From NCBI GenBank assembly GCA_029776225.1, contig JAKOTR010000011.1:1-64000 (forward strand): a DNA stretch of 64,000 nt, in the 5' to 3' direction. The notes under the pieces were generated by a model, which saw only the letters and a list, made by a program, of their open reading frames with translations, searched no databases and was not told the origin of the DNA. The position numbers and the translations under genes are program-made. Source of the DNA: Acidobacteriota bacterium. Lineage in GTDB: Bacteria > Acidobacteriota > Terriglobia > Bryobacterales > Bryobacteraceae. Below are positions 1,406 through 6,727 of this stretch, piece after piece (the first letter of the stretch is position 1; each line of letters begins with the position of its first letter).

Positions 1406-3625
1406 TCATTTCTGCCGGTACCTCCACTCCAAGCCTTCCCCGGTGCGAGCTCGATATCGTTCCCACTTCATTGCTCTGAGGCAGCGTGCCACACGATTCT
1501 TGTCGTGTTGCGTCCACAGTTCCGGCCGCTTTCCAATCGCGTGGGTCAAGATGTCGGCCACCGTGACCGATTCCCGATTGCTGGTCATTGGTAGGAAGCC
1601 GCCCCCGCCATCAGGCCGCGCGCACGGCGATGCGATCCACTGGCGGATGATCGGATCCCAGGGATCGCCCTCAAATCGGTCCTCCTGCTCTTCCGCCGCC
1701 GCCGCGTTCAGTTCGGGGCTATCCAGCCACCAGCGGTCTCCACGCTTGAACCGCACCACGGCCTCGGCCCAGAGTTGGTCACGGTCTCGCTTCAATTCCT
1801 CGATGTGGATCGCCCCACAGCGCACAGGCCAGAAGCGCCGCCCACCCGTCTCATCCTGAAGGTAGGCGTCCTGATTGGTGGTGGCAGCGAACACGCACTG
1901 CCGCGGAGATTCGATCAATCGCTTGCCGTAGGGTGGCCGGAAGCGGTCGGTAGAACGGCTGATGAAGGCTTTCACCTTGGCCAGATCGCTACGACGCATG
2001 GCATCCAACTCGGCCATCTCAATCAGCCACACGCCTCGGGTCTGTAGCGACGCGTCCTTGGTGCCAAGGTCCGAGATTTCGTCAGTGAACCAGGGCTCCG
2101 CCAGTGCGGCAAGCGCAGTGGATTTCAGGGCGCCTTGCTGCCCTTCCAGGATCAGGCAGTGGTCAGCCTTCACCCCCGGCTTGTAAATGCGCGCCACAGC
2201 GGAGATGAGCCATCGCGCGCCCACCGCGCGTGTGTATTCATTCGGTTCCACGCCCAGGTACAGCGTCAGCCAGTCGTCGATACGAGCGACGCCGTCCCAT
2301 GTAAGGCGCGCCAAGTAATCGCGGACGGGATGGAACCGTCGCTCCATCGCCACGGTCTGAGCGGCCTGCCCCGCCACATCCGGAGAGACGTAGATGCCTT
2401 GATGCTGAAGCCAGTCTGCCGTACGCCGGTCGTAATCGTCAGACCATACGCCGGGTCGGCCGCCAGCGAAAGGTGGTGGTTGGATGGCTTCCACCAGCTC
2501 GCTGAATTCATTGAAGGCCATGACTCCCTGCCAGTGCGGCGAGTGCCGCAACATAGTAATTGCGTTCGCCAGCAGGGGCTTGAGCGTCCCATCTTTGTTC
2601 AGGATCAGCGCAGTGCGCCAATCTGGAGCCGTATTGGCGCCTGAACGTTTGGTGCGCGGCCCCTCGACTTCGCGCTCAGGGGGCTTCGGCGGGCCCCCGC
2701 CGCTGTTGCCCTTCGCCTGTGGGCTGTAATGATCGCGAACGCCTGAGAGGGCCGCTTCGATCGTGGCCTGGCGGTAATCATCGCGCAGCCACTTCTCGCG
2801 CATCAGGCCGGACTGGCGGAACAGCCGGTCGATACGGCCGGCATCGCCGCCAGCCCAGAAGGCCAGCAGGTTGCACAGCGCGAGGTCGGCCTCAGACTGG
2901 CTGGAGTATTCGCCTTCCCATTGGCCTGCCCACAGACGGGCGAACTTTGCGCCGTCCTTGGCCTCAGACGCGCGCTGGATGAGTTCCTGGTCTCCAACGT
3001 CGGCCGCGGCCCCAGGAACGGCACTGGCGCCGTTCCTGCGCGCACTGTGGCCATTCCTTCGGCCATCTACGGAAATTCCGAAGATGCGGGCATGCAGGGC
3101 GGCCAGTTCAGCGGTCCGATCCTCGACGTCGCGGTCGTTCAAACGTTGGCCCGTGACGGTGAAGAACCGGCCTTCGGAGTACATCTCCACATGCCCTTTG
3201 CGCCGCCGCCCCGGAGGCAGTTCGCCGCGGCATAGGATGTGCACTCCCGTGCCGCTGGGGGAGACTTCTGTGTAGCTGTTCAGCTCATCGATGATCTCCT
3301 GCGCCCACTGCTGAAGCGCACCGCTCTCCGGGTCGCGCGCATGATCAAGATCGACTCCTACGATACCGTCTCCGAGCATGCATCCAATGCCGAGACTGGC
3401 GTACCGCCTCGAGGCGGCGAGGCAGACTTCAAAGCTGGTCCATGTAGATGGATCGTTCGACTTGGCAGGCTGCCCGTTTGGCTGAATCGGAACCTTTGTG
3501 GGCTTGCCGTTCCTGGTCTCGTAGCGCCAGCAGACCCAGCGAGGCTCCCGCAGCAGCTCTTCGGCCATGCGCTCGGCCAGCGGCTTGGGTGGTACAGGTC
3601 CACGCGCTGGAGATGCGGTCGTCAT
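1406..3625 (-). CDS. Primase-polymerase fused to VapE-type helicase
   Basis: A 739-residue replication protein. The N-terminal part (about 25-185) has archaeo-eukaryotic primase features: a DxD pair in VGVDLDHA (Asp92, Asp94), a following SGTGVHI His motif, and EMYSEGRFFTVTG. This matches the bifunctional primase/polymerase of phages and plasmids such as NrS-1. The C-terminal part (about 430-640) is a VapE/virulence-associated E ATPase with Walker A EGQQGALKST near 494 and Walker B VWLIEMAELD near 532. Such proteins prime and unwind element DNA. The start ATG overlaps the upstream TGA, and a GGAGGTG ribosome site lies inside the upstream gene. The opposed repeat array lies immediately 3' of it. 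Confidence 0.85.
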   Translation of the reverse strand: MTTASPARGPVPPKPLAERMAEELLREPRWVCWRYETRNGKPTKVPIQPNGQPAKSNDPSTWTSFEVCLAASRRYASLGIGCMLGDGIVGVDLDHARDPESGALQQWAQEIIDELNSYTEVSPSGTGVHILCRGELPPGRRRKGHVEMYSEGRFFTVTGQRLNDRDVEDRTAELAALHARIFGISVDGRRNGHSARRNGASAVPGAAADVGDQELIQRASEAKDGAKFARLWAGQWEGEYSSQSEADLALCNLLAFWAGGDAGRIDRLFRQSGLMREKWLRDDYRQATIEAALSGVRDHYSPQAKGNSGGGPPKPPEREVEGPRTKRSGANTAPDWRTALILNKDGTLKPLLANAITMLRHSPHWQGVMAFNEFSELVEAIQPPPFAGGRPGVWSDDYDRRTADWLQHQGIYVSPDVAGQAAQTVAMERRFHPVRDYLARLTWDGVARIDDWLTLYLGVEPNEYTRAVGARWLISAVARIYKPGVKADHCLILEGQQGALKSTALAALAEPWFTDEISDLGTKDASLQTRGVWLIEMAELDAMRRSDLAKVKAFISRSTDRFRPPYGKRLIESPRQCVFAATTNQDAYLQDETGGRRFWPVRCGAIHIEELKRDRDQLWAEAVVRFKRGDRWWLDSPELNAAAAEEQEDRFEGDPWDPIIRQWIASPCARPDGGGGFLPMTSNRESVTVADILTHAIGKRPELWTQHDKNRVARCLRAMKWERYRARTGEGLEWRYRQK

Positions 3626-4076: not shown

Positions 4077-4121
<45 letters not shown>

Positions 4122-4562: not shown

Positions 4563-6404
4563 CTAATGCTGGTTTTGCCCAAGCCAGAGCAAGCGCTCTG
4601 CGATCCACAAAGCATCCACCGGCCAAAACGCCTCCGGGCGGGGGCGCATTACACCAGTTAGTCCCGAAATGGGCCTGCAGGTTAGAATTCGATCCTGCCA
4701 TTGGAGCGGGACACTATCCCTCCCGTAGGCGGCGCCGAGAAGAGCGCCGGCGATGGCAGCGTTGGTATCGGTGTCTCCCCCGCACATCACGGTGCGGACG
4801 ATCCCCTCTTCCAGATTCCCGGCGTGCAGCAATTGCCAGAATGCGTTTTGAAGCGCAATCAGCACCCATCCCCTGTGGTCAGAGTAGCTGTCTGGCGGTC
4901 TCGAGCCGGCATTGACAATCGCCTCGACCACGGCCTTGGGCGAGTCCGCCCGCTGAGCCACATCGCACGCGAACCGGTGTATCGCTTCCGGCGCAGCGCC
5001 GGTCCGGATCGCATACGCAAGCGTCTCAGCATACACTTTGTTCGCGTGCTGGCACACGATATTCGGATGGGTCAGTAACGCATCCTGCTGCGCCCAGTCC
5101 CCGGCCACGCCTTCCCGGGCGCCAGCACCGAGAATACCGAGCGGGCTGACCCGCATCAACGCGCCGTTGGCCTGGCTCTCCCTTCTTGCAGCTTCTCGTG
5201 AAGATTGCGCCACCGATTTGCCGGCAGCCATAGCCGCAGCCGCAGCGGATACGGCAGTAGCCGTCGTATTACCAATATCGAACGGATGAGATTCGTACCA
5301 GCGGACGTACGAGCGGGCGGCTGCCTCCGGATCGTAGACGCCACTCTGGATGATAGAGCGCGCCAGGGATAATGCCATCTCGGAATCGTCGGTGGGTTGT
5401 CCTGCGAGCGTGTTCCAAGAGCCCCCGTCCTCCAGGACGCGCACGCCGTCCGGGTACGCGCGGCGAATCGTTGCTGCCGTTTGAAATTCCACGAGGCTGC
5501 CGAGCGCATCGCCGGCGAGTTGGCCCAGCAGGCAGCCCTGCGCACGCGACAACAGGCCGGCGTCAGGCACCGTGCAGCCGCGCTGCGGCCAGCATAGGGC
5601 GGACGGCTCCGGCGCCTGCGACCGGCGCTGAAGCGCGGAGCGCCATTCACGCGTCACGAGCTCTCGGACCACGGAGTGCAGTCCACCGAAGCACCGCCCG
5701 GCGCAATCGCTGTTGCCGTTGCGGTTGTAGTGGATTGCGTTGCCCGCCGCGTCGTACAGATCCATGCCGGCGCCCAGGAGCATCGCGTGGCCGCCCGCGT
5801 AATCGTATCCAACAGGACCATTCAGCGAAACGGCGGCTCGCGCTTCTCCGGCGGCCACCAGCGCAAGGCGATAGGCGATGCTGGGGACGGCGCGGAATCG
5901 CAGAGGCGCGGCCAGAGTCGCGTTGGCCAGGGAGTTGCGGTCGGCATGGTGTGAGGCCAGAACCGTTTCCGGGACCGCGCCGTGTGGGACGCAAACCTCC
6001 CGTCCATTCCTCTTTATGGGCCCTGCTCCCTCCGCCCAGGTGAACAGGTCCCCTTCGTCGTCAGGGGCGGAGTATGCATAAACAACGCCGAGAACGGGCC
6101 GGCCGTTCCTCAGCAGCGCGATGGAAACCGCTGCCCCTCGAAATCCTTTCTCGAATGCCGAAGTTCCGTCGTTGGGATCTATAAGCCAGAGATGACCTGC
6201 CGCATCCTGCGGAGGCCGGACCAAGCCCAATTCCTCTCCGTGATAGCCGTACTGCGGGCAGCAAGCCATCAGGATCCGCTGAATTTCCATTTCCGCCCGC
6301 CTGTCAACTCCGGACTCCCCGGCGTGGAATGCACGCCGGAGCAGCGCTCCTGCGTCGCGGGCTGCCTGCACTGCGTATTCAAGTTCGCGTCTGTAGTCGT
6401 TCAT
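4563..6404 (-). CDS. Inositol-monophosphatase / ADP-ribosylglycohydrolase fusion
   Basis: A 613-residue two-domain protein. Residues about 1-255 are an inositol monophosphatase family domain with all metal-site motifs: GEELG (56), DPNDGT (76) and YDYAGG (201). Residues about 290-613 are an ADP-ribosylglycohydrolase with GCLLGQLAGDALG, the metal-binding TDDSEM (338) and GGDTDTNAA (542). Both active sites look intact, so it may remove a phosphate and an ADP-ribose group from one small metabolite or from related ones. It has no signal peptide. The chosen ATG has GGAG five bases upstream; a TTG 21 bases earlier is less likely. It is not in an operon, so the substrate is unknown. Confidence 0.88.
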   Translation of the reverse strand: MNDYRRELEYAVQAARDAGALLRRAFHAGESGVDRRAEMEIQRILMACCPQYGYHGEELGLVRPPQDAAGHLWLIDPNDGTSAFEKGFRGAAVSIALLRNGRPVLGVVYAYSAPDDEGDLFTWAEGAGPIKRNGREVCVPHGAVPETVLASHHADRNSLANATLAAPLRFRAVPSIAYRLALVAAGEARAAVSLNGPVGYDYAGGHAMLLGAGMDLYDAAGNAIHYNRNGNSDCAGRCFGGLHSVVRELVTREWRSALQRRSQAPEPSALCWPQRGCTVPDAGLLSRAQGCLLGQLAGDALGSLVEFQTAATIRRAYPDGVRVLEDGGSWNTLAGQPTDDSEMALSLARSIIQSGVYDPEAAARSYVRWYESHPFDIGNTTATAVSAAAAAMAAGKSVAQSSREAARRESQANGALMRVSPLGILGAGAREGVAGDWAQQDALLTHPNIVCQHANKVYAETLAYAIRTGAAPEAIHRFACDVAQRADSPKAVVEAIVNAGSRPPDSYSDHRGWVLIALQNAFWQLLHAGNLEEGIVRTVMCGGDTDTNAAIAGALLGAAYGRDSVPLQWQDRILTCRPISGLTGVMRPRPEAFWPVDALWIAERLLWLGQNQH

Positions 6405-6727
6405 CACCGCTCCGAGTTTCTGCAATGCCTGGTGAGTTGTACGCCGTTTGCGAGGCGCGCGGCCGTCTTTTCGCCGGGCCCGCCAGCTATACGGGTATCA
6501 TACCCGGACCTCTGCTTTTATAGCAGCGTGGTTGCAAGCCTTGGATGTCGCGGTCCAGCTCCAATGCGTGCGCCGCATGCCAGCCGGGACCTTCGATGCA
6601 CAGTCCTACTGGGCCAGGTTTCCCACCTGAAGCGGCACGCGGGTCCGTTCCAACGCACCGGAGCATGCGCGCGGTGTACAATTTACCGTCGCGCCTTGTC
6701 GCGCAAGGACCTGAGGAGCCTAAAAGG
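6405..6727. other. Intergenic region between divergent genes
   Basis: These 323 bp separate the leftward fusion gene from the rightward GH78-like gene, so both promoters should lie here. A perfect inverted repeat CGGGTATCATACCCG is at 6492-6506, and a -10-like TACAAT is near 6675. No gene is supported. Open frames here read as arginine-rich shadow translations. Confidence 0.4.
6492..6506. promoter_or_regulatory. Inverted repeat CGGGTA-tca-TACCCG
   Basis: A perfect 6+6 inverted repeat with a 3-bp centre, about 90 bp upstream of the fusion gene start. It could be an operator for either divergent gene. No regulator gene lies beside it. Confidence 0.3.

Follow-up and report, generated by a model that had tools for sequence, protein, structure and literature searches.

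The ADP-ribosylglycohydrolases (ARGs) DraG and Tri1 act on arginine-linked ADP-ribose. We searched the open full-text literature (subscription journals, bioRxiv and supplements lay outside this search) for fusions of an ARG with an inositol monophosphatase (IMPase), for ARGs in phage defence and for IMPases in ADP-ribosylation or defence. The only direct precedent was PMC9503650, whose section 3.8 predicts that an ARG and a phosphatase, in the same polypeptide or encoded by adjacent genes, act against viral ADP-ribosylation. A NUDIX or WYL regulator is present in about 42% of these ARG-centric systems, and their template, ARG-phosphatase-NUDIX/WYL-REase, comes without a coupled ADP-ribosyltransferase or sirtuin. 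The phosphatases named in that section are of four kinds (rhodanese-type, calcineurin-like, HD and HAD), and the words inositol, IMPase, monophosphatase and CysQ are absent from the main text of the paper. A first-pass annotation of the DNA considered here knew of no defined role for a fusion of phosphatase and ARG; in view of this published prediction, which concerns other kinds of phosphatase, that statement needs to be amended.

An IMPase and an ARG in one chain

The window, by which we mean the whole stretch of 64,000 nucleotides that was analysed, contains an IMPase-ARG fusion gene at 4563..6404 on the minus strand, with an ATG start at 6404 and a stop at 4563-4565. Frame translation yields 613 aa without an internal stop, on the same strand and at the same coordinates as first annotated. 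The longest possible frame would start at a TTG at 6425, and GGAG lies 5 nt before the ATG. In a Pfam search, the window protein belongs to both PF00459 (Inositol_P; 80.8 bits, E 1.5e-22, cut-off 27) and PF03747 (ADP_ribosyl_GH; 215.4 bits, E 1.7e-63, cut-off 26.2). The inositol monophosphatase-like domain spans residues 9-226 (5727..6380, minus strand) with motif residues E57, D76, D79, T81 and D201, and the ADP-ribosylglycohydrolase domain spans residues 290-566 (4707..5537, minus strand) with E306, T338, D339, D340, D544, D546 and T547. All five IMPase and all seven ARG motif residues, which we take to be the catalytic positions of the known families, are present in the alignment. The genome has eight matches to PF03747 and three to PF00459, the fusion accounting for one of each.

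An AlphaFold2 model of the whole chain, based on 25 aligned sequences, has a mean pLDDT of 94.3 and a pTM of 0.94, so the relative placement of both domains is confident. Together, the Pfam scores, the motif residues and this model bear out the original claim that a phosphatase and an ARG share one chain and that both retain their metal motifs. According to VIA-align, the ARG half (residues ~280-613) most resembles Tri1 (6dre; Z 39.6, rmsd 2.0, 293 aligned residues), followed by a Thermus protein (2yzv, Z 38.4), DraG (2woc, Z 38.3) and ARH3 (Z up to 36.0), and the IMPase half (residues 5-255) matches SuhB (3luz; Z 29.1, rmsd 3.0, 233 aligned). Such likeness of fold gives no proof of substrate. 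Among NCBIfam equivalogs, the protein scored below the curated cut-offs for DraG (TIGR02662; 131.8 bits versus 337), Tri1 (NF041672; 102.8 versus 490) and CysQ (TIGR01331; 54.8 versus 228.8); the IMPase half is also under those for HisN and inositol-1-monophosphatase, and neither half falls in any named equivalog.

We aligned 29 full-length fusions (28 rows plus locus L109; the rows are not independent, L083 and L084 being near copies), the others being 40-75% identical to the window protein. Their sources are Acidobacteriota, Chloroflexota, alphaproteobacterial and Pseudomonas plasmids, and one prophage-like contig. Full-length homologues at 40-76% identity in several phyla go far beyond what chance would give. 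The possibility that an assembly error or frameshift had joined two genes, on which the first-pass annotation had made its claim depend, is ruled out by these homologues, and the fusion is genuine. One relative runs the other way: at L094 of genome G302 the two halves lie in two overlapping frames. The closely related L090 is unbroken, which makes a frameshift or an error of sequencing likelier at L094 than a natural split.

The IMPase motif set is complete in 24 of the 29 fusions (exceptions L076, L083, L084, L085 and L091), the ARG set in 27 (exceptions L068 and L082), and both sets in 22. At L083, L084 and L085 the IMPase half, and at L068 and L082 the ARG half, has lost metal-motif residues while the other half is intact, which indicates that either half can decay alone. 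With 7/29 fusions showing motif loss in one half, coupling of two reaction steps is not retained in every member.

In a tree of 57 ARG rows, the subfamily is split from five distant viral rows at 100/100 support, and the fused and standalone conditions require three changes of state. A tree of 37 IMPase rows sets the 34 subfamily rows apart from three ordinary IMPases at 100/99, and groups the standalone IMPases of mobile elements with the Pseudomonas luteola fusion, also at 100/99. Both trees would be explained best by one ancient fusion event, after which one or the other half was sometimes lost; several deep forks are weakly placed.

Distribution and genomic setting

At E <= 1e-60, matches occur in 12/297 genomes of the window's phylum (nearly full-length in 5; several of the rest lie at contig ends), in 18/251 Chloroflexota genomes, the phylum of G301 (15 near full-length), and, with the ARG alone, in 3/296 genomes of the Actinomycetes-labelled phylum of G305. 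The window's order has matches in 16/150 genomes, 9 of them near full-length. Four plasmid records cover at least 80% of the fusion (two from Azospirillum, one each from Rhodobacter and P. luteola), and of 20 viral-contig loci, one (L109) is a fusion and nine (L110-L118) are clear standalone ARG relatives at 49-56% identity. Among annotated phages, 0 of 19 matching records cover at least 80% of the fusion, the matches being to the ARG half only and at best 32% identical, and the P. luteola gene had no DNA match in E. coli genomes. Pseudomonas-type and Stenotrophomonas plasmids carry standalone IMPase relatives that share 49-57% identity with the P. luteola protein. Another standalone IMPase (L135, 1547-2344, plus strand; 60%) lies beside genes that by eye appear Zot-like and of filamentous-phage type; neither there nor at L103-L106 on Pseudomonas-type plasmids is an ARG among the annotated or listed nearby genes.

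In the window, at 4092..4121 on the plus strand, 440 bp past the 3' end of the fusion gene, are the last 30 nt of a tRNA-Gly(GCC), matching without difference the end of the complete tRNA-Gly gene that contig C104 carries; this is only an attachment-site-like remnant and no tRNA gene. Further out is a gene for a VapE-like primase/helicase of mobile-element type (1406..3625, minus strand; PF05272 E 1.4e-80, NrS-1 HBD E 3e-25), which is context and outside the fusion's system. We infer that the remnant and the VapE-like gene lie at the border of an element that has integrated here, and that the fusion sits immediately beyond this border or belongs to an adjacent insertion. On the right are ordinary genes; no NUDIX box was found in contig bases 1-18000, and the flanking genes are not common to the nearest relative, L097. 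The fusion is absent from the single other genome of the genus within the 150-genome draw of the order (G994), in which the contig begins at greA and narrowly misses the empty-site region. The window copy was probably acquired horizontally.

Among the mobile copies, the fusion at L109 is followed 84 bp downstream by a gene for a 437-aa NUDIX protein and then by McrC- and McrB-like genes (by McrBC Pfam matches). At L021 a NUDIX gene begins 9 bp downstream, TM0106, WYL, DUF3883 and DUF3427 genes are in the same stretch, and a SIR2 gene is ~10 kb from the fusion. L022 has the order WYL-WCX regulator, small gene, fusion, with Mrr, HD_4 and TM0106 genes nearby, and L020 has an Mrr nuclease gene near the fusion. 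At the unannotated L019 none of the neighbours is clearly a defence gene, and ~3.7 kb upstream of the fusion is another ARG, of Tri1/Thermus-like type. Three of the five mobile fused loci share a divergent upstream gene of 233-258 aa at 37-48% identity (L020, 9138-9842; L021, 9168-9941; L109, 254-952; all minus strand), called a "recombinase family protein" in RefSeq for L021. A NUDIX gene adjoins only three fused loci, namely L021, L109 and the chromosomal L066, where it is of another type. An Aeromonas plasmid (L100) carries WYL, ARG and related NUDIX genes, but the subfamily profile missed its ARG, which we therefore do not include in the family; NUDIX relatives on plasmids of Caballeronia and P. 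juntendi had no ARG link.

Standalone ARGs on viral contigs occupy similar places. L110 follows PglZ (1120 bits) and BrxL (1014 bits), L111 follows TmtA (329 bits) and PDC-S68 (1660 bits), the near copies L112, L117 and L118 follow HARE-Mrr, McrB- and McrC-like genes, and L113 is divergent from McrC/McrB-like genes. Directly downstream of the ARG at L117 is a PF22558 gene ("Restriction Endonuclease associating with ARP", REase-ARP; E 4.7e-59). The neighbours of L114-L116 are phage-type or of no clear kind. Upstream of the HARE-Mrr/McrBC/ARG operon of L112 (1360-3823, plus strand), a DarT gene overlaps a second ARG gene with a glyoxalase domain; this DarT and the SIR2 gene of L021 are an ADP-ribosyltransferase gene and a sirtuin gene near family members.

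We compared neighbour ORFs with PADLOC (E <= 1e-10; ORFs by a greedy longest-frame rule, some of them spurious; proteins over 900 aa or containing X, one 1848-aa protein, L023 and viral loci L119-L128 fell outside the sets). For 15 viral or plasmid loci, 96 ORFs within four genes matched 43 families, with PDC-S02 in 5, mREase_IV in 4 and MkoA, MkoC and REase_II in 2 each, besides BrxL, PglZ, TmtA, PDC-S68 and IetA. For 23 fused loci of Acidobacteriota and Chloroflexota, 122 ORFs within three genes (125 listed minus 3) matched 11 families with one member each. These counts are a contrast rather than a test, as the sets differ in lineage and width, and in our judgement the contrast is confounded by lineage, as PADLOC draws mostly on well-studied phyla. 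The window and eight further Bryobacteraceae loci (38 window ORFs and 46 neighbours; 12 of 50 window ORFs, the fusion among them, were outside this set) gave only generic AAA, sigma-54 and E1-like families. Copies on plasmids and viral contigs have McrBC, BREX, Mrr, WYL and NUDIX genes around them; most chromosomal copies, the window's among them, do not. A single operon conserved across lineages is ruled out, neighbour clustering having given no family common to the whole set.

Within Bryobacteraceae, one neighbour does recur. An AAA ATPase gene adjoins the fusion in 4 of the 8 further loci (L152, 10582-11988, plus strand; L154, 10633-12159, plus; L155, 10118-11818, plus; L156, 6329-7660, minus), the proteins being 43-70% identical to each other. 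In three loci, from two genera, it is divergent with a gap of 544-583 bp; in the fourth it follows the fusion directly, in the same orientation. Three of the four loci also encode a conserved protein of 326-330 aa alongside it. In the PDB the ATPase best matches VCP-like and other AAA unfoldases, and BCS1 ranks further down. In a sample of 32 genomes from the 150-genome order listing, the ATPase was found in 4 of 16 with an ARG or fusion match, each time adjoining the fusion; of the 16 without such a match, 2 had it, only as weaker relatives (38-41% identity). It is absent from the window's genome. A distant relative in a sister genome that lacks the fusion (L176, 7332-8399, minus strand) is followed by what by eye is a WYL-type regulator-like gene.

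Candidate functions

Our preferred reading, which we put forward tentatively, is that the fusion is a two-domain ADP-ribose eraser, that mobile copies in defence islands probably reverse ADP-ribosylation imposed by invaders and that the window copy is the same enzyme acting alone. The ARG half, of DraG/Tri1 type, would cut ADP-ribose off an ADP-ribosylated macromolecule, most likely from arginine by analogy with the nearest solved relatives. The IMPase half may then dephosphorylate what is set free, or a compound derived from it, sometimes together with a NUDIX enzyme; candidate substrates are ribose 5-phosphate or AMP after NUDIX action, or a 2'-phosphate if NADP is the donor. The first-pass annotation had suggested that both domains serve one pathway, and this is reasonable because they are two metal-dependent hydrolases in one chain whose motifs are kept and conserved across phyla; its proposed substrates, ADP-ribose 1''-phosphate and PAP, are not supported. 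We count in favour of an eraser in defence the intact motifs, the Tri1, DraG and SuhB folds, the defence neighbours of mobile copies, the published template, the patchy occurrence and the AAA gene, which is within 0.6 kb of the fusion in 4/4 AAA-bearing, fusion-positive Bryobacteraceae genomes. Against it count the few defence neighbours of chromosomal copies, the lack of a NUDIX gene by the window copy, the 7/29 motif losses and the rarity of NUDIX overall.

A more specific version is possible, if doubtful: a mobile immune eraser that removes invader-imposed ADP-ribose and destroys the product against reuse or sensing. Its partners would differ, being NUDIX and McrBC-type restriction on proteobacterial mobile elements, and an AAA unfoldase with the conserved 330-aa partner in Bryobacteraceae.

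The main rival for chromosomal copies, which we consider rather unlikely for the family, is a housekeeping enzyme for metabolite repair of NAD(P) or ADP-ribose or for sugar-nucleotide turnover, present in islands as incidental cargo of an often-transferred gene. Most chromosomal copies do sit among metabolic genes and have few PADLOC matches: ferrochelatase and hemG-like genes at L066, sugar epimerase-like TIM barrel and Gfo/Idh-like genes at L091, ABC transporters at L073 and, around the standalone relative L023, a ribose-type sugar operon. However, no metabolic neighbour recurs beyond a few loci, the patchy occurrence (12/297, 18/251 and 3/296 genomes in three phyla) would be odd for such an enzyme, and mobile copies sit with restriction systems. 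As a separate observation, a pair of hemG-like and (by eye) uroporphyrinogen-decarboxylase-like genes adjoins a fused ARG at L066 (10054-13312) and a standalone ARG at L159 (9777-12359) in two distant Acidobacteriota.

It is improbable that mobile elements carry the gene as counter-defence or an antidote, stripping ADP-ribose added by DarT- or CmdT-like systems of hosts or rivals. Carriage on plasmids and on prophage-like and viral contigs would suit this, as would the DarT gene with its own second ARG gene upstream at L112; however, the neighbours are themselves defence genes, and near-complete fusions were found in none of the 19 matching phage records. Very improbable is a cognate eraser that undoes the cell's own regulatory ADP-ribosylation in the way that DraG counteracts DraT: the fold of DraG is one of the nearest, but the score is far below its equivalog cut-off, and no transferase was recognised by eye among the recurrent neighbour clusters, the Pfam matches of neighbours covering the best 25 of 54 families.

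Comparison with known systems

The preferred reading, a two-domain eraser, can be set against three described groups. The fusion is like DraG and Tri1 in its C-terminal fold and motif residues; however, it is far under both equivalog cut-offs, is joined to an IMPase and has no DraT or toxin partner seen beside it. Its N-terminal fold and metal-motif residues are those of SuhB/inositol monophosphatase, CysQ and HisN, but this IMPase is a separate subfamily, split at 100/99 from the IMPases of its own genome, and is below their equivalog cut-offs.

To date, host systems that undo viral ADP-ribosylation are known chiefly as predictions. A putative eraser-phosphatase in one chain, found repeatedly next to restriction systems, would offer a compact, testable member: both active sites can be point-mutated, naturally halved versions exist for comparison, and NUDIX and AAA are testable partners.

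The closest comparison is with the ARG-centric systems of PMC9503650, as far as its section 3.8 describes them. The fusion's phosphatase is an IMPase, outside the four kinds named there, its NUDIX is a 437-aa protein and only a candidate regulator, and most chromosomal fusions lack those partners; the section is itself a prediction. Nevertheless, the fusion likewise couples an ARG to a phosphatase in one chain, WYL or NUDIX genes (at L021, L022 and L109) and restriction-type nucleases are near mobile copies, and a standalone subfamily member adjoins a REase-ARP gene (L117). By this analogy, the IMPase-ARG family fits the predicted ARG-phosphatase template with a different phosphatase.
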